This document shows, one piece after another, positions 6,190 through 34,741 of a DNA stretch of 64,000 nucleotides. The DNA is from Symmetrospora coprosmae (lineage: Eukaryota; Basidiomycota; Cystobasidiomycetes; Symmetrosporaceae). Each line of letters begins with the position of its first letter. The stretch's first letter is position 1. Position numbers and translations under genes: made by a program. The notes below the pieces were generated by a model. That model was not told the DNA's origin. It saw only the letters and a program-made list of their open reading frames with translations, and did no database searches. The stretch covers positions 496,001 to 560,000 of the forward strand of contig VUYT01000002.1 in the NCBI GenBank assembly GCA_008802785.1. The letters are read 5' to 3'.

Positions 6190-7859
6190 CTACCGCATGA
6201 GTTCGTCAATGACATCCTGCCCCTGTCTCTCCTCTTCCTGTGCACTGCCTCCTGGCTGATCCGCTGCCAGCTCCTGCTCCCATTTCGTGAGGGGCTGCTG
6301 CCCTGGCACGAAGGTCTCGACCCTGCCTTCCCCGCTTCCACCCAGAAAGTCACCAGAGTCCTTGAGGTCATTCATCCCGTAGACTTTCTCGAGCTCGTGC
6401 TCGCTTACGTATTCCGAGACCATACAGAGACACCCTGGCTTGCTTTTCTCTTGCGGTAGACTGGCTCGCAGGTAATCCGGTAAACCCAGATTCTCCAAGG
6501 TACAGTCGCACTGTTGCCGCGAGAACGGCGACATATGGCGTGTTGGTGATCGACGTAGCGGTCAGCTTGCTAGCCACCTGTGCAACACTGTGAGACAGGT
6601 CTACTGACAGATGAGATGTGCACGTCGTACTTGATTCGCAGCGCCCTTATCTCCCTGGCTTTGACATCCGCACTCGACCGGTATGAGAGTTCGAGAGCCA
6701 AGCTATGCGAAACGCGCACGCCTGTTTCGGACCATGCAGACGTGCTCTGTCTGATAGTGTTGTCGTTGGGTAACCGCATGTTGCGCGTGAGCTGGAAGGC
6801 TTCGCCCTTTCTGAGATGCGTGGGAACGCTCTCTGCTGGTGCGATTCGGTCGGCTGACGTTGAAGGACCGAAGGTACGTGCTAAGCCCTGTCGCTCTTGG
6901 GCAAGGGTCCATATTTTGATGGAGAAGGGCGGACGTTCTTCAACAGGCGCATCGGCTTGCGCGAGGTTGCGCAGTTGAACGTTTTGAACAAGGATGACTG
7001 CAACGTCGACGATCTCGCAGTCCTCTGCCATTTCCGGCAGGGCAAGTGAGAGGCGTAGGAACCCGTAGATGAGGAGGAATCGGGTGAAGAACTGTGCCCG
7101 CAGCGGACCCAGCTCTGGGTGTAGCAGCTCCTCAACTCGGTTGAAGCCCTGTGCGATTCCCCATTCGCCTCTGTTCGTGATCGCCTGCAGGTACACTTCC
7201 GTCTCCTCAACAAGAGCGCTGCCGAAAAGTCCACAGCCATGCGCGGTGACGCGGATCTTGTGCTTCGTCCGGGCGCGCACGTTGCCACCGTGGGGAGCGT
7301 TCCCTTCCTTGCGGACGTCCGCCTGGAATTCACCGAGCCGTTCGACTGGCCTGGACAGTCACGAGGTCAGTGGACTCCAGCTTGCGTTCGGACAGCAAGA
7401 GACCCGCGGTGGCTTGGCTCACGCTGTGTTGGCGGGAGCGATGAAGCTCCAGGCGAACGTGTGCTGCCCTTTGCTCAGTGTGCTGGAGTCCTCGCATGGG
7501 TTGATGGTCAATTTGCGCTGGATCGTAGGGTATGCCACGTACTTGCCGTGGACTGTCATGGTTTGTGTGCCGATCTATGGCTCCGGAGGAGGTGCAGATG
7601 GAATCAGGGGAGCAGAGGAGACTCAGAACGGATGCCGCGAAGTCTGAGATGGGCGCCCGTCGGAAGCGCGGCAGAGAGAAGGCCAGCGTACGAATTCGAC
7701 ATCGATGCGCTTGACCTGCTTCGCAGCAGCAAGGGTGAGTGTCACATTGCCGTCAATGACCGTGTCGTCGGCAGGCCCCGAAGCCGGGTCAGTCGGCTTG
7801 AGGAACCAAAGAACATATCGCGGCTTGATCTGGAGGGAGGTGCTCGAAGAGCCGACCAT
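6190..7859 (-). CDS. Arrestin-like protein, copy A
   Basis: Arrestin-fold protein of 460 residues from four exons (7859-7692, 7574-7423, 7350-6609, 6510-6190), all in frame. The N-terminal arrestin domain holds DTVIDGNVTLTL and KQVKRIDVEF, then FAWSFIAPAN and the HGGNVRARTKHKIRV strand. The C-terminal domain has LGPLRAQFFTRFLL and CEIVDVAVILVQ. After the last intron comes the module shared by all four copies: CDC, LPDY, CLC, YGMND, TKWE, ending DELMR. Alpha-arrestins are adaptors that bring Rsp5/NEDD4-type ubiquitin ligases to membrane proteins; the LPxY motif is a plausible ligase-binding site. That role is inferred from the family. It is closest to copy C in exon structure and tail. Confidence 0.85.
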
Positions 7860-8166
7860 ACGGGCGCAAGCGCGAGGGGGAGATGGATAGGCAGAGCTAC
7901 GAAGTTGAATGGACGGGAGTCACTGAGTGACTCGGAGAAAGCGGAGGAGGATCATCGGCACGTGCTGTACTGTGCGCACCCCACCGTGACCCTCCGAGAT
8001 GGACTCCTGGATCCTCCGGCGATATCATTGTTCACAACGGGGCTCGTGTTTACATTGCAGGCGAATGAGAAGCTGCTACCTGATGTATAACGACATAGCT
8101 GACCAACCTGCGACGCCGCCTTGGGCAGGCTCGGATCTTCTCTGATGCTACGAATGCCTCCTGATA
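7860..8166. promoter_or_regulatory. Spacer between arrestin-like genes A and B
   Basis: 307 bp between the start of copy A and the stop of copy B, both minus strand. It would hold the terminator of B and the promoter of A. I see no coding exon, although an unrelated frame stays open across part of it. Confidence 0.35.
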
Positions 8167-9793
8167 CTATCGCATCAGCTCCGAAATGACGTCCCGCCCG
8201 CCTCCACTCTCTCCCTTCGTGGCTTCTGCCAGTTTCTGTGCTTGCGCTTCCTCTTCCTCCCATTTGGTCCGCCTCTCTATTCCTGGCGCCCCCGCATCCC
8301 CGCCTTCATCCTCCTTGTAGTCGCTCAAGCCGTAGATGGCGTTGATGAGGGGATCCTTGTGTGTCCTAGAGCACAAGCAGTCGCGCGGGTACGTCACCTT
8401 CCACTTTCTTGCGTAGGATGAGCTTGCCGAGCCGCTCGCCACCGGCCCGCCTTTGCCCTTCGCGTCCGATACCTCATTGCTCGGGTCTCCCTCTTCGTAA
8501 TCTGGTAGCTGTGCATTCTCGATACCGCAATCGCAGCTCGATATTTTCGCTGGAAAGGCGATCCTGAGCTCCTTTGTCTCGCCCTCCTTAACGCCGTTTC
8601 CGCTCTGACTCCATAGCGCTGTATACCGCACATGCACCGCCAAAGTGTGCGACATACGGATGCCAGTATTGGTGAAGTCGTGAGTGGAAGGTCGGATGTA
8701 GTTGTCATTTAGCAGCCGGACAACCCTGACGAGCTTGAAGTCCTCGCCCTTCTGTAGCTCCACGGGACCCTGCTTGCCGCCGCCACTGCTACTGCTGCCG
8801 TTGGCCTTTCCCTTGCCTTTCACATCGACCTCTTCATTTCGTAGACGCCATAGTGGTACAGACCATGGCCGGCACTCCTCCTTTACCGAAGGCTGTTCCG
8901 GGTGCTGCAGACTCGCGCGCTGTGTCAGGACGACGCTGACGTCGTCGATGCGACACATTTCCGGCACCGCAGACAGTGTGAGGGAGAGGCGGAGAAATCC
9001 ATGAATGAGAAGATAGCGCGTGTAGAGGTGAGCGCGAAGCGGACCAAGCGATGGATGGAGGATCTCTTCGAGCTGGTTGAAACCGGTGGCGGGACCGTAC
9101 GGATTTGCATTCGCCTGCAGGCTGAGGAGCTCCTCCGCGACGAGATCTCCACCGAACATTGAGAGTCCGTAAGCAGTTGCCCGGATCCGATGCCGGCATT
9201 CGCCCAGACCAACGCCTCCATGAGGAGCAATCAGATCTTTGTCTGCTTCAGTGCGCTGCGTTATGCTGGGGCCGGCGATACCAAATCGTTCGTAGGGCTG
9301 AAGGCTGAGCGCATCAGCTATGGCATAGAGCACATAGGCTATTAAGCAGCGCACGTACAGCGGTGTTGGCCGGCGCCACGAACACATAGCTGCCAGCACG
9401 CCGAATTCTTCGAACGGGTTCAGGGTGACTTTGCGGTGAAGAGTCGTGTGCTTGATCCACTCTCCTCGGATGCTCATGCGCTGTAGGCCAATCTGCGCGG
9501 TTTGCGAGAGCTGCATGAGTGCGAGCGACTCCGGCCAAAAGTCCCGGAAGACGCACCAACTCGACGTCTATCTGCTTGACCTTCTTCGCGCTTGGCAGCT
9601 GAAGTACAATCTCTCCCTCCACAATCGTGTCCTGATGGCATGCAATCGCAAGCATTAGCTGTCTTGTGGAGTCATGACACATATACGCCTCGAGCGTGCT
9701 GACCCTGCTCGGGCCTTCCCTCGGATCGGACGGATAGAGCCAGTACAGCTCATGGCGGTTGTCGATGCTGAGCGAGGGACTGAAGACGACCAT
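8167..9793 (-). CDS. Arrestin-like protein, copy B (diverged exon 3, last intron lost)
   Basis: Arrestin-like protein of 478 residues from exons 9793-9704, 9631-9557, 9492-9359 and 9304-8167. N-terminal landmarks are DTIVEGEIVLQL and KKVKQIDVEL. The C-terminal domain has LGPLRAHLYTRYLLIHG and CRIDDVSVVLTQ. The shared tail is present as SSCDC, LPDY, CLC, YGLSD and TKWEEEE, ending SELMR. Two oddities: the exon ending at 9359 is 134 nt against 152 nt in A, C and D and its last codons are out of frame with the homologues; and the intron before CDC found in the other copies is cleanly absent. The penultimate intron is 54 bp with no stop in frame, so retaining it would also give an open protein. 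The intron at 9703-9632 is shared with copy D only. Confidence 0.85.
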
Positions 9794-9975
9794 ACTCGCA
9801 GCTGCAGAAGTCCGTTCGTAGAGGTGCCGTAATCAGGACGTCAAGACGCAAGGGACCGGATGTCACCCGTGCCGGATCTCCCCTCCTCAGGGCGCTCTCT
9901 GCCACTTCCCTTCACTCCGAAACAAGACATTAAGCTTACAGATCTGGACGCGCGCCCAGTCCTTCGTCGCTCGCG
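9794..9975. promoter_or_regulatory. Bidirectional promoter between arrestin-like genes B and C
   Basis: 182 bp separate two divergently transcribed paralogues, so both promoters must lie here or overlap the genes. I see no clear TATA box. A shared control region is an inference from spacing. Confidence 0.45.
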
Positions 9976-11540
9976 ATGGGCATCCTGTCCGGCGCATCCG
10001 TAACGATCTCGCCGCGCTATCAGCTCTTCTTCCTAAGACCTCAAGATTCTGGTCTGGGACCGTCCGAGGATACTGTCGTCGATGGCGAGTTGACCCTCAC
10101 TCTTCAAAGCGCGAAGCAGGTTAAGCGGATTGACGTCGAATTGGTGCGCGAGAAGTCTGCTCGCGAGCCTGATCTACATACGAACAACCGCGGCGAGTTG
10201 ACAGAGTCTCGGCTGCTCCCGACCGCAAACGTACAGATAGGACTACAATCTATGACTATCCATGGCAAGTATGTCTCGTATCCTACCTTGCAACACAAGA
10301 TTACCATCGATCTGCTGGACGGGACGGGCACTTTGGATGCTGGTACGCACGCATTCTCCTGGTCTTTCGTAGTACAGGCCACAACAGCGTAAGACACTGC
10401 GCGAAGCGATGCTCCCTGAATGGCGTCAGTCGTTACGATTAAACACCTCTGCTTGTTCCAGACCGCATGACCGCCTTGGAGAATTTGAAGCCGAAGTACC
10501 GCGCATCCCCAGAGATGTCCCTGTTCCGCATGGAGGCTATGTCCGGGCAAAGACGAAGCACAAGGTCCGCGTGACGGCGCCTGGGTGCGGCAACTTCGGC
10601 AGCGATCTCGTTCAAGAGACAGCATTGTGCCTGCAAGCCATCGGGGAGTGGTCACAAGGCTTCAGCCGGGTCGAGGAGCTCCAGCACCCTGTACTGGGCC
10701 CGCTACGAGTGCATCTCTTCACACGGTACCTCCTAGTGGCAGGCTTTTTGAAGCTCACGCTCAACGTGCCTGAGATTGAAGAAGATTGCGAGATCGTCGA
10801 CGTGACCGTCACTGTGGTCCAGCAGGTGCAATTGAGAAATCTCTCCCGGCCGGACATACCGGAAGAGGTGTGCAAGCCGCATGCTTACCAGCTGTGGAGC
10901 CTGGAGGCAGAAAGGATGGCCTCAAAGGAGCCTCGTGCGCCTGGCGGGGAAGGAGATCTGCCGTCTACCCTTCGTAAAGGAGAGGCCTTCCAGCTTGCTC
11001 GGATCTTGCGACTCCCAAGCGACAACGTGATCCGTCAATCGACTCCAATCCACTCGAAAACGGGCATTCGTGTATCGCACACTGTGGCTGCCGCTCTACA
11101 ATACAGGCGCCTCAGCATGCCCGCCGAGACGAAGGAGCTGCGCATCAGATTCGACTGCGCCATTTGTTCGGTGAGCAGATGCATCGCGGCTCGGAGGAGA
11201 CAGGACGCGATCGCGGCTAACACACAAATGCCTTGTCATGAAGTGTGACTGCGTATTCGACAATCTGCAACTACCGGACTACGCACTTGCGCCCCCACCT
11301 AAGGGCAAAGGCAGGGTGGAGTGCCTGTGCGAGCTGTCTGCATTGACCGACAAGGAACGACTGAAATTGTACGGGATGGATGACATGGAGACTGGCGGGC
11401 ATCAGCACGGGACATTTGTGCCTAGACAGCAGCCACCTACGAAGTGGGAGGAGGAGCTGGCGGCGTCTGCGGTTCCAGGAGGTCTGGGCCCGCCTCCTGA
11501 CATTGGAGGACAAGCGGCGATCAACGAGCTCATGCGGTGA
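9976..11540 (+). CDS. Arrestin-like protein, copy C
   Basis: Arrestin-like protein of 441 residues from exons 9976-10143, 10237-10388, 10462-11170 and 11244-11540, all in frame. Landmarks are DTVVDGELTLTL, KQVKRIDVEL, MTIHGKYV, FSWSFVV, HGGYVRAKTKHKVRV, LGPLRVHLFTRYLL and CEIVDVTVTVVQ. The tail after the last intron has CDC, LPDY, CLC, YGMDD, FVPRQQPPTKWEEE and ends NELMR, almost the same as copy A. The first two coding exons have the same lengths as in A (168 and 152 nt). Likely an adaptor for ubiquitination or endocytosis of membrane proteins, by family analogy only. It faces the protease gene tail to tail, 115 bp apart. Confidence 0.86.
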
Positions 11541-11655: not shown

Positions 11656-14600
11656 TCAGATCGGCGTCGCCCCGCCCATTGGACCGGACTCGATACCGCC
11701 CGGTAGCGGCGCATCGTGGCCCTTCTCGGCCTGGGGTCCACCAAAGCCTTTGCTCCAGCCGAGATTCCGCTTCTCCTCCTCGGTCTGATCGTTGAACGGC
11801 CGTGGCCCGACAAGCTTCTCCATATCCTCTCGCGTGATGATCTCCTTCTCCAGCAGGAGAAGCGCGACCTTCTCGACCTGTTCCTTCTTCTCCGTCAGGA
11901 GCTGCGTTGTGCGCCTGTGCGCATCCTTGATGATCTTGCTGACCTGCTCGTCGATGAGCTGCGCCGTCCGCTCGCTGAAAGGCTTGGTGAAGCCCTCCTG
12001 GCGGTCCTGGCCGGATCCATACGAGATGGGGCCGAGTTCCGTCATGCCGTAGTTGGCCGTGAGCTCGCTCGCCATCTTTGTAATCTTCTGCAAGTCGTCC
12101 TGTGCGCCCGTCGTGATTCGGCCAAAAAAGATCTCCTCCGAGACACGCCCGCCAAGGGTCATCATCATTCGGTCGATGAGCTGCTCCGTCGTGAAGAGGA
12201 AGCGTTCCTTCGGCACGTACTGCGCGAAGCCGAGCGTTCCGACTCCGCGTGGTACGATAGACACCTTGAGGCTGTGGGAGTGATGCAAATGTGGCCGAGT
12301 CAGCGTTGGTCACAAGCACACATCATAGCCACGACTACTCACAGGGGGTCGGCGTGCTCGAGGAACCACCCGCAGACGGCGTGTCCAGCCTCGTGATAAG
12401 CGACCGTCTTCTTCTCCTCTGGGCTCATGATTCTGCTCTTCCTCTCCAGTCCAGCAATGACACGGTCGATGGCCTGCTCGAAGTGCGCCTCCGTGACATA
12501 GTCGGCGCCCTTCCGTGCCGCAACGAGCGCAGCTTCATTGCACACATTGGCGATGTCGGCACCGCTAAACCCAGGGGTGTGCACGGCGAGCTTGCGGGCC
12601 AGCGCGGCAATCTCAGGTGAAACGTCAACGTCATCTGGGTTCTCCGGCTCGTCCGACGCCTTCTTGCTCTCTTTGCCCGATGTCTTCGAGTCACTAGACA
12701 GCTTGGTGCTGGCGCTCGGGCTGGGCGGGACGGACGTCGTTGGCCGCGCTGCAGGCGGCGGGGTGGGCTCTTCCGCATGACTGGCGCGGACGATGCCGTT
12801 GTCGTTCAGGTCGACAACAATCTCCCCTCCCTTGTGGTCTTTGTCCTTTGTATCTCCCTCAATCTCGACCGCCTTGGCATTCTGCGTCGCGGGCATGGCG
12901 TCCGCCGCAGGTGCGGCGCTGTTGGGGCCCAAGCTGCTGCTCTCGTCATCTTGTGCCTCTGCCGCGCTCTCCCTGTTTGCCTTCTGCGCCTGCTTCAGGC
13001 TGAGAATGAGAGGGCGCAAGTGGACTTTGAATATCTGCCGCCGGCCCCCAACGTCCGGATTGCCAACGGCAATCTGCCGGTCGAACCGTCCCGGCCGCAG
13101 CAGAGCGTTGTCGAGGACGTCGACCCTGTTCGTGCCCGCGAGCACGACGACCTGCTCCTTTGTGCTGAATCCGTCCATCTCGACAAGCAGCTGGTTGAGC
13201 GTGCTCTCACGCTCGTCGTTGCCGCCGAACTGCCCGCCCTTGCCTCGGGACTTGCCGATGGCGTCAATCTCGTCGATGAAGACGATGGCGGGGGCGTTCT
13301 TGCGGGCCTGGGCAAAGAGATCCCGGACACGCGAAGGACCGACACCGACAAACATCTCGACAAACTCGGAGCCGGAGACGGAGAAGAAGGGCACACCCGC
13401 TTCACCCGCCGTCGCCTTGGCTAGCAACGTCTTTCCCGTTCCAGGCGGTCCGGAGATGATAGCACCTCGCGGGATCTTGGCACCCAGTCGCTGGTACTTC
13501 TTTGGCTCTTGCAGGAACTTGACGAACTCCATGATCTCCTCCTTTGCCTCGTCCATGCCTGCGACATCGTGGAACTTGACCTTTATGTCGGTCTCGTGCT
13601 GTGAGCGGTGATGATGTACTGTAGTTAGCTTTTTCTGACGGACGGCGAGCGAGGGCAACATACGTTGAACATCTTTGCCTTGGACTTGCCAACGCCAAAG
13701 ATACCTCCGGGTCCACCACCCATGCCGCCGCCAGCAGCACCTCCGGCTCTCCTGCTGAGATAATAGAGGAGACCGACGATGAGCAGAGTGGGAGCAAAGC
13801 TGACGAGCGTGTTGGAGATGCTCGTCTCGTCCTTGTAGGCGACAGGCACGCGCTCGGCGCTCGGGATGGAGAGCTCGTTCTGGGCATCGTCGAGCTTGCG
13901 CTCGAACGCCTCGACGCTGCCGATGCTGAAGTAATAGCTCGAGCGTCCGTCTGCTGCAGGCGACTGGGGGTAGAGGACGCCCGTCGCGTTGCTGTGAAGG
14001 TGGACGCGAACCTTGCTCCGGTTGACGACGACGAGCTTGTCGACGAGGCCTTTGTCGAGGAAGGCGGTGCGGAACTCTTGCCAGGTGATCTCGCGTGCAG
14101 ACGAGTCCCCGCCGGAGAAGAGGTGGAAGAGGAGGAGTGCGCCGAGGGGGACGAGGTAAGGACCCAAGCCCTGCGGCCCGCTGGGGAAGCCATTGCCGTC
14201 ACCTCCACTGCCGCCGCTGCCGCCCGTCTTGCTCTTGTTCAGCTTGGACGTCTCGGCGTCCTTGCCTCCTTCGCTCGTATCTGCTCCTCCCAGTCCAAAT
14301 GGAAAGGCGTCCTTCCCTAGCTTCTGCGGCCCCCCACTGCCAGACTTCTTTGCTGCGTTCTGGCCAGTCTTGCCCAGCTGGCCGCCAAAGAAGCCCTCGA
14401 GGCCAGGGAAGGGCGAAGACGAAGCAGGCTTGTCGTTGCTACTGTCCTCTTTCTTCTGTGGCTGCGATGCCTGCTTGTCGGTCTCGACGCCCTCCCTGGC
14501 GCGATCCGACTCTGTGGCCTTGTCAGAGTGAGTGGCGTACCCACGACGGCGCGGCGACAACAAGGACAAGGACGATGGCAGAGCAGCGGAGGTGGACGCT

Positions 14601-14776
14601 GTCGACGTCGATAGTGTGCGCCTGTTGCTGTTGCTCAGCGCCGGCGATTGCGACTGCGCGATCCTGCTCGACGACGACGACGACGACGATGATGATGCGC
14701 CCGCCGGGACGACCCAGCCGAGGCGATGGGGCCTAGCGAGCTGGCTCCTCTGCGAGAGGATGACGGCTCTGCGCAT
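11656..14776 (-). CDS. Mitochondrial m-AAA protease subunit (Afg3/Yta12 type)
   Basis: ATP-dependent zinc protease of the inner mitochondrial membrane, acting in protein quality control and processing on the matrix side. Three exons (14776-13664, 13598-12343, 12271-11656) give 994 residues. The N terminus is Ser/Arg-rich, fitting a mitochondrial presequence. Membrane segments lie near [16 protein letters not shown] and [17 protein letters not shown]. The AAA domain has [11 protein letters not shown], Walker A GPPGTGKT (about 421-428), Walker B IVFIDEID and the arginine-finger region LLRPGRFDR. The M41 protease motif HEAGH is near 773-777. About 125 low-complexity residues (about 570-694) are inserted between FKVHLRPL and the [12 protein letters not shown] helix. 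The start at 14776 is the first ATG giving a presequence; the frame is open upstream. Confidence 0.95.
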
Positions 14777-15032
14777 GGCAGCGATGTGCGGGATGTGCTG
14801 TATGTGTGTATGTACGATATAGTCTCGATGTGAATCCGGACACTGTTGGAGAAGAGAAGAGCGAGGGTGACGCTGACTTGCGTGTGCCCGGGCCGATGCG
14901 GGCGGGCAGAGGGTGGCAAAGAGGAGCATGCACACACAATCATTCGATTATGTTCATTGCAGCTTGGAACGGATCCCCGCTCCAGTCAAATCCGCTATCT
15001 ATACTGTATACAGGTAGCTGCCACCTCCTGAT
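14777..15032. other. Short intergenic region
   Basis: 256 bp upstream of the protease gene and downstream of the NDUFA4-like gene, both minus strand. It should contain the protease promoter. Nothing else is seen. Confidence 0.35.
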
Positions 15033-32948: not shown

Positions 32949-34741
32949 ATGCTCGGTCTGGCGAGCATCCGCATACAGTGCCTCAACACGCTCTGGTTCC
33001 TCCGTCCGAGCGACCCAGATGCGGGACCAACGCTGGTGCGTGCTCGAGTCAGCACGCGTCCGAAGAGCTCCGCCATTGCATACTGGCAGTATGCGGTTGG
33101 GCAGCAGCAGCGCGCGGGCTGAATTCCATCGCTTTCCTGAATCTCACAACCGCCCGCACAGGACACTGTCATCTCCGGCGAGGTTATCCTGACCCTTCCG
33201 AGCGCCAAGAAAGTCAAGAAGATCGATGTCGAGCTGGTGCGCTAGGATATCCGCCCCTCCGAGCTCTCTCGTCACTGTCGCCTGCGTCCATGCGCTTATG
33301 CCGTACGGCTTCCTCACGCAGGTCGGCAAGCAGTCCATGACGATCCGGGAGGCGTTCGAAAAGTACGAGGTACTCCACCGGAGCCTGACCATAAACCCGT
33401 TTGAGGAGTTCGGAACGCTGCAGGCGGGCGAGCATCGCTTCGCATGGAGTTTCGTCGTGCCTGCCAACTCTGCGTGCGCCTCGCAACCTCTTGACAATCT
33501 CGCAAAGGCGCCGACAACGAGACCGAAAGCTGACGTGATGCGCGCCACGCAGACCCCACGAGCGCCTGGGCGTCTTTCGCAAAGAGACGGGCGAGATTCC
33601 CAACATCCATCTCCCCGCACACGGTGGGATTCCCGTCGCAAAGACCGTGTATAAGCTGCGGGCTGTGGCGCATGGATGCGGGGCCTTTGGCAAGGATATT
33701 GAGGCGAGCGAGATTGTTGGCTTGGTCAACAATTCATCTCCACCGGGGCAGGCAGCGCGCGACTACAACACGGCGCACGAAGACTCGCACCACACCCTGG
33801 GCCCTATACGGGTCCATCTGTACTCGCGGTACTTCCTGATCAGCGGCCTCATGCGTCTCGCCGTGAGCGTACCTGCCCCAACGCGCGCGTGCCAGATCGA
33901 GGACGTCAAGCTCGCCATTATCCAGCACGTCAGCCTGCAGAGCCTCCAGAACCCGGAGCGCAAGGAGGAGCACAAGCCCCTTGATCTCGTGCTGTGGAGC
34001 TCGCGCAGGCAGCAAGAACAGGAGCACGAGCGCGACCGCACCAGCGAGCCATACAGTCCCACCATCCTCCGCGCAGGACAGCCATTCAACCTCGTCAAGC
34101 AGATCAGGCTCGCGAACGACAACTTTCTCCGCCAGTCGACAAACCCTCACTCCATCACGGGAATCAGGGTCTCGCACTCGCTCGAAGTCACACTGTGGTA
34201 CGCTGCCCTCGAGGACGAGAACGGGCGAAAGATCGACCATCCGAGGACAAAAGTCATGGAGTACAGGTTCGCAGCGCGAATAGCATCTGTGGGTGGTCTC
34301 GCTGCTTTTGCATTCCCCTGCCTTCGGGCGGTAACGGCCATGAGTCCGATGATGTCAACTGATGACCCTGACACGCGATGACTGGGGTAAAAGTGTGACT
34401 GTAGCAAAGAGAATCTGGAGCTACCAGGGTACTCGAAGACAGACCCGGCGCTCAATGGCGCATCCGCCGCTCACGAAGTCTGGCGCGTCAAGAACCCGCG
34501 CGACTGCATCTGCTCTCGCTTGGAGAAGGATCACCTCGAGGACGTGTATGGCGTGGACGATGCGACCTGGAATGAGCAGTCGCGCTGCGGCAGTCCCGTG
34601 TGGAACGAACGCACCAACAAGTGGGAGCCGCCTCAGGTGCCCGGCGGCCCACCGCCTGCCCCGACGCGGCCGACCCGGCAGGCCTCGCGCATGAGCGAGC
34701 AGCACGTAGAGGGGAGCTTGGGATTCATGGCGTATGGCTAG
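32949..34741 (+). CDS. Arrestin-like protein, copy D
   Basis: Fourth arrestin-like paralogue, 465 residues, from exons 32949-33035, 33162-33236, 33322-33473, 33553-34288 and 34394-34741. Landmarks are DTVISGEVILTL, KKVKKIDVEL, HRFAWSFVVPANS, LGPIRVHLYSRYFLISG and CQIEDVKLAIIQ. The tail after the last intron has SCDC, LPGY, CIC, YGVDD and TNKWEPPQVPG, so the Cys module is kept. The C terminus differs from A-C: it is proline-rich and ends FMAYG, not ELMR. The extra intron inside the first domain is shared with copy B, and the exon lengths 75 and 152 nt recur. It lies about 21 kb from the A-C cluster. The adaptor role is inferred from the family. Confidence 0.85.

Follow-up and report, generated by a model that had tools for sequence, protein, structure and literature searches.

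An expanded family of arrestin-like proteins with an LPxY motif set between cysteine pairs in Symmetrospora coprosmae

A window of 64,000 nucleotides (nt) from the basidiomycete Symmetrospora coprosmae (contig VUYT01000002.1, positions 496,001 to 560,000) carries four arrestin-like genes, A to D (Table 1). The four proteins end in tails that all contain CDC, LP[DG]Y, C[LI]C, YG and KWE. The original prediction had recognised four arrestin-like copies sharing these ordered motifs after the arrestin C domain, and both claims hold: models of A, C and D spliced with GT-AG introns fall exactly on the predicted intervals and give intact proteins of 441–465 amino acids (aa), and CDC, LP[DG]Y, C[LI]C and KWE occur in order in 4/4 copies. 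The longer motif YG-x-[ND]-D, also attributed to all four, is found in three tails but not in that of B, which reads YGLSD. The extreme C-terminus I[SND]ELMR is common to A, B and C (6190-6220, 8167-8200 and 11510-11540) and is absent from D.

Table 1. Arrestin-like genes, their tail modules and an adjoining gene in the window
Feature	Position	Strand	Exons, reading frame or motifs	Protein	Basis
Arrestin-like gene A	6190-7859	-	exons 7692-7859, 7423-7574, 6609-7350, 6190-6510	460 aa	spliced model and alignment
A tail module (last exon)	6190-6510	-	CDC 6502-6510, LPDY 6472-6483, CLC 6424-6432, YGM 6373-6381, KWE 6277-6285		
Arrestin-like gene B	8167-9793	-	C lobe and tail open in the open reading frame (ORF) 8170-9297; upstream exon out of frame	376 aa (ORF)	
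B tail module	8257-8535	-	CDC 8527-8535, LPDY 8497-8508, CLC 8371-8379, YGL 8326-8334, KWE 8257-8265		
Arrestin-like gene C	9976-11540	+	exons 9976-10143, 10237-10388, 10462-11170, 11244-11540	441 aa	spliced model
C tail module (last exon)	11244-11540	+	CDC 11244-11252, LPDY 11271-11282, CLC 11322-11330, YGM 11370-11378, KWE 11442-11450		
Arrestin-like gene D	32949-34741	+	exons 32949-33035, 33162-33236, 33322-33473, 33553-34288, 34394-34741	465 aa	spliced model
D tail module (last exon)	34394-34741	+	CDC 34394-34402, LPGY 34421-34432, CIC 34505-34513, YGV 34547-34555, KWE 34619-34627		
FtsH-type AAA/M41 protease gene	12339-14947	-	adjoins copy C		

A search of the 20.05-Mb genome (77 contigs), with B, one C31 member and one C55 member as queries, brought the family to at least 16 loci: the four of the window, C55 (318k and a cluster at 374-378k), C44, C11, C8, C65 (two) and C31 (three). 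All 16 tails were read. LPxY is present in every one of them, and in all 16 an [L/P]PxY motif lies C-terminal to the arrestin domains. A full first CxC occurs in 14/16 members (the exceptions being C55_376k with CCN and C31c with CHA), and a second pair, C[LMI]C, likewise in 14/16, being absent from C65a and C65b; in 13 of the 16, this pair is followed by YG within 6-20 residues. The two C65 members (430k and 432k) stop soon after CDERAK[AD]C, and their tails are either shortened or continued in an unrecognised exon. Five members place a further cysteine in the middle of the first motif (four read CCC and one CCN), and three (C44, C55_374k and C55_376k) carry an extra one in [FY]C[TS]xCLC, a CxxCxC pattern. 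The spacing between LPxY and CLC ranges from 13 to 49 residues. KWE is found in 5/16 members and the looser [KVDQ]W[EK] in 8/16.

Full conservation (16/16 members) in the family alignment is limited to the histidine of the IRVSH strand, the leading Cys of each pair and three residues of LPxY (L, P and Y). In C65a and C65b, the aligner filled the column of the second pair with the final Cys of CDERAK[AD]C. Pairwise identity averages 32% in the 51 columns ahead of the first Cys, 49% in the 15 columns that start with it and 19% thereafter. When the residues following LPxY were shuffled 2000 times within each of the 16 tails, a second CxC arose on average in 0.94 members (maximum 5; 14 in the real tails) and KWE in 0.09 (maximum 2; 5 in the real tails); these counts are not probabilities, because the 16 members are related. 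The ordered module is a family trait as regards Cys/LPxY/Cys, which is kept over 16 divergent paralogs, but not as regards KWE. Homologues could be compared for joint retention of LPxY and the cysteines within this genome and a handful of closely related sequences; in the 16 members LPxY is constant and each CxC is present in most, four having an incomplete pair.

Outside the window, too, members occur in twos and threes (C55 374-378k, C65 430-432k and C31 123-128k), and these small clusters suggest repeated local duplication. Gene structure is shared as well. An intron (marked here by a slash) at VE[LF]/[IV]G.Q is common to A, B, C and D; another, at A[NT][TS]A/P, occurs in A, C and D and lies one base later in B; and A, C and D share a third, immediately 5' of the CDC codon. 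Copy B was left unrepaired. Its spliced model stops after 111 aa. In the exon before the last ORF, near 9383-9402 (minus strand), B lacks, as judged by eye, about 25 nt that A, C and D have; the N-terminal half is thereby shifted out of frame, and the C lobe and tail stay open. The copy appears damaged or wrongly modelled: it could be a damaged gene, a differently spliced one or the product of an assembly error. A public protein, P0003, is 94% identical to B over the C lobe and tail; its N-terminal part is unrelated and found no match in the genome, an empty result that carries little weight.

Part of the module has a counterpart in the conventional alpha-arrestins with long tails that the same genome encodes. 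One of them, C22:699k (L051), ends its C lobe with ILS/CRTRQAHHLPTY, spliced as PIHILS/CRTRQAHHLPTYTTS..., with a PPTY further on and no CxC in the stretch read. A 74 nt phase-0 intron lies immediately before its Cys, as in A, C, D and the C8 member. Another, C55:589k (L019), has LPSY 35 residues past ALPIHILSP and no Cys there, and C44:808k and C7:212k show by eye neither CxC nor LPxY directly past the presumed last strand. One of the four conventional copies examined therefore shares a Cys and LPxY where the C lobe ends. Because C22:699k has the Cys, the LPxY and the intron at the same place, the first Cys and LPxY look inherited from ordinary arrestins. By sequence comparison, the novelties of the family are the cysteine that completes the first pair, the segment C[LM]C-YG and the number of copies; the second cysteine pair as a whole also looks new. 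The module had been put forward as undescribed in its combination: no arrestin with a Cys-LPxY-Cys module was recognised in a search of open-licence papers, with tools that cover fungi poorly, but its first Cys and LPxY are already present in C22:699k.

No Pfam model exceeds its cut-off on the module when the four window proteins and the 16 members are scanned, and the reading of the tail as a known Pfam domain was rejected on this ground; Cys_rich_CWC (PF14375), the candidate considered, gives 14.8 bits on A for a cut-off of 24 and matches 1/16 members, with a best E of 0.018. In the predicted structure, the C half resembles the C lobes of arrestin and VPS26, and the lobe ends at the first CxC. 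Protein searches returned six proteins, five of which are versions of this genome's own members: besides P0003, P0001 is 99% identical to D, P0005 100% identical to C31a, all 269 aa of P0006 coincide with C31c, and P0004 agrees with C55_376k in 98/134 aligned columns, an intron having been read through. P0002 shares 50% identity with D and stops ahead of the tail. The module was seen elsewhere only in versions of this genome's members, an absence that says little since the database is poor in fungi and exact shared words were needed.

Alpha-arrestins are marked by [L/P]PxY motifs (PMC9105457), and LPxY is recognised by the WW domains of Rsp5 (PMC2810449). The genome encodes, at C7:86210-88114, three WW domains followed by a HECT domain within 0.4 kb on the same strand, an arrangement like that of Rsp5. 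These data suggest, with moderate confidence, that A-D and their relatives form a divergent and expanded subfamily of alpha-arrestins, i.e. ART-type adaptors with cargo-binding lobes, an Rsp5-recruiting LPxY and added cysteine pairs. The following model can be drawn. The arrestin lobes would bind membrane cargo, and the invariant LPxY, located right where the C lobe ends, would dock a WW domain of the Rsp5-type HECT ligase of the genome. The docked ligase would then ubiquitinate the cargo, leading to its internalisation. The Cys pairs that flank LPxY, the second being followed by YG and partly by a W-acidic stretch, would be an addition of the family and most likely hold the tail near the C lobe.

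Several observations weigh against this model. A sibling at C31:124278 matches Arrestin_N of Pfam with 39 bits, above the cut-off of 24.9, but D (20.6 bits), A (17.3) and C (12.6) fall below it, no Arrestin_C match above cut-off was found anywhere in the genome, and no PDB sequence matched at E up to 10. Alpha-arrestins often carry several [LP]PxY motifs (PMC3517545), whereas the stretch read holds a single one in 14/16 members and a second, further on, in the other two. Ten of the 14 second C[LMI]C pairs lie inside one exon; the other four rest on a phase-0 CL/C intron that was placed with the motif already known. The two members that have no full first CxC and the two that have no second one do not fit a strict four-ligand site, unless other ligands substitute. 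Finally, residues 256 to 347 of B, in its tail, have pLDDT values below 50, the low-confidence model of C31a is mostly below 50 between the Cys pairs, and no folded Cys site is visible. Because confidence in the modelled tails is low, predicted structure neither supports nor excludes metal binding.

Recruitment of Rsp5 is probable from the motifs, and the readings differ mainly in what they make of the cysteines. A zinc-type Cys4 site is the leading guess, possible rather than probable; metal is favoured because the Cys pattern is ordered and CxxCxC variants occur, such a pattern being more typical of metal ligands. A fuller version is rather unlikely: one zinc bound by the two CxC pairs would pin the loop with LPxY against the C lobe, docking of Rsp5 would depend on the supply of metal or on oxidation, and the copies, at least 16, would sort many cargoes under such metal or redox control. 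The conserved cysteines could instead be sites of S-acylation (palmitoylation) or of membrane contact next to the C lobe, LPxY still recruiting Rsp5. This explanation, which we judge unlikely though the strongest of the rivals, would account for a Cys cluster right where the C lobe ends, for the middle-position Cys of five members and for the lack of a predicted folded tail; yet a second CxC placed at some distance past LPxY and then followed by YG represents more order than acylation requires, and the [FY]C[TS]xCLC of three members looks more like a metal-ligand pattern.

It is improbable that the tail has no new function, being an ordinary C-lobe ending (Cys and LPxY) kept in a duplicated family, with extra cysteines due to lineage drift or structural packing. 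The conventional C22:699k, the scarcity of KWE and the variable LPxY-CLC spacing all agree with such a history, but each pair keeps its leading Cys in every aligned member and most members retain the second CxC, though the part past LPxY is only 19% identical. A redox switch, with LPxY exposed or hidden as the Cys pairs enter reversible disulfides or are joined to thioredoxin by mixed ones, is quite improbable. It would suit a ligase motif flanked by two Cys pairs, and TXNIP is described as an alpha-arrestin tied to thioredoxin. TXNIP forms mixed disulfides with thioredoxin and combines functional cysteines with PY motifs. However, its reactive cysteines sit elsewhere in the protein and are not known to form a CxC/LPxY/CxC tail.

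Among known systems, the closest to the subfamily proposed here are the fungal alpha-arrestins, or ARTs, whose PY motifs recruit Rsp5. They are alike in the arrestin C lobe, in an LPxY past this lobe and in the occurrence of Rsp5-type WW and HECT domains in the genome, and C22:699k, a conventional copy, shares the Cys, LPxY and intron position of the family. A, C and D differ from them in being short and below the Pfam cut-off, and the family in its mostly single [LP]PxY, its two CxC pairs and its copy number. LITAF, described as an endosomal sorting protein that is integral to the membrane and has zinc-binding Cys-rich regions, is comparable in these regions to the Cys pairs of the family and differs in being a membrane protein. 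It carries a PPxY motif and is not known to have an arrestin fold. Beyond the arrestin-like genes, nine larger ORFs of the window compared with Pfam (FtsH-type AAA protease, kinase, ANAPC4 and gamma-glutamyltranspeptidase being among the matches) showed no functional link with them.

Four alpha-arrestins are predicted in Ustilago maydis, where Art3 and Rsp5 are reported to be needed for the same effect (PMC9704768), and four, Ali1-4, with PxY sites, are described in Cryptococcus neoformans (PMC6867901). These basidiomycete sets, compared here by counts and not by tails, contrast with at least 16 copies in the divergent family alone. The four of C. neoformans are described as found through recognisable arrestin domains (PMC6867901), and divergent copies could have escaped. 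As A, C and D lie below the Pfam cut-off, both counts may be too low. If the proposed reading is true, the family would represent a line of ubiquitin-ligase adaptors prone to escape profile searches, and would offer a compact arrestin in which recruitment of the ligase could be gated via cysteines.
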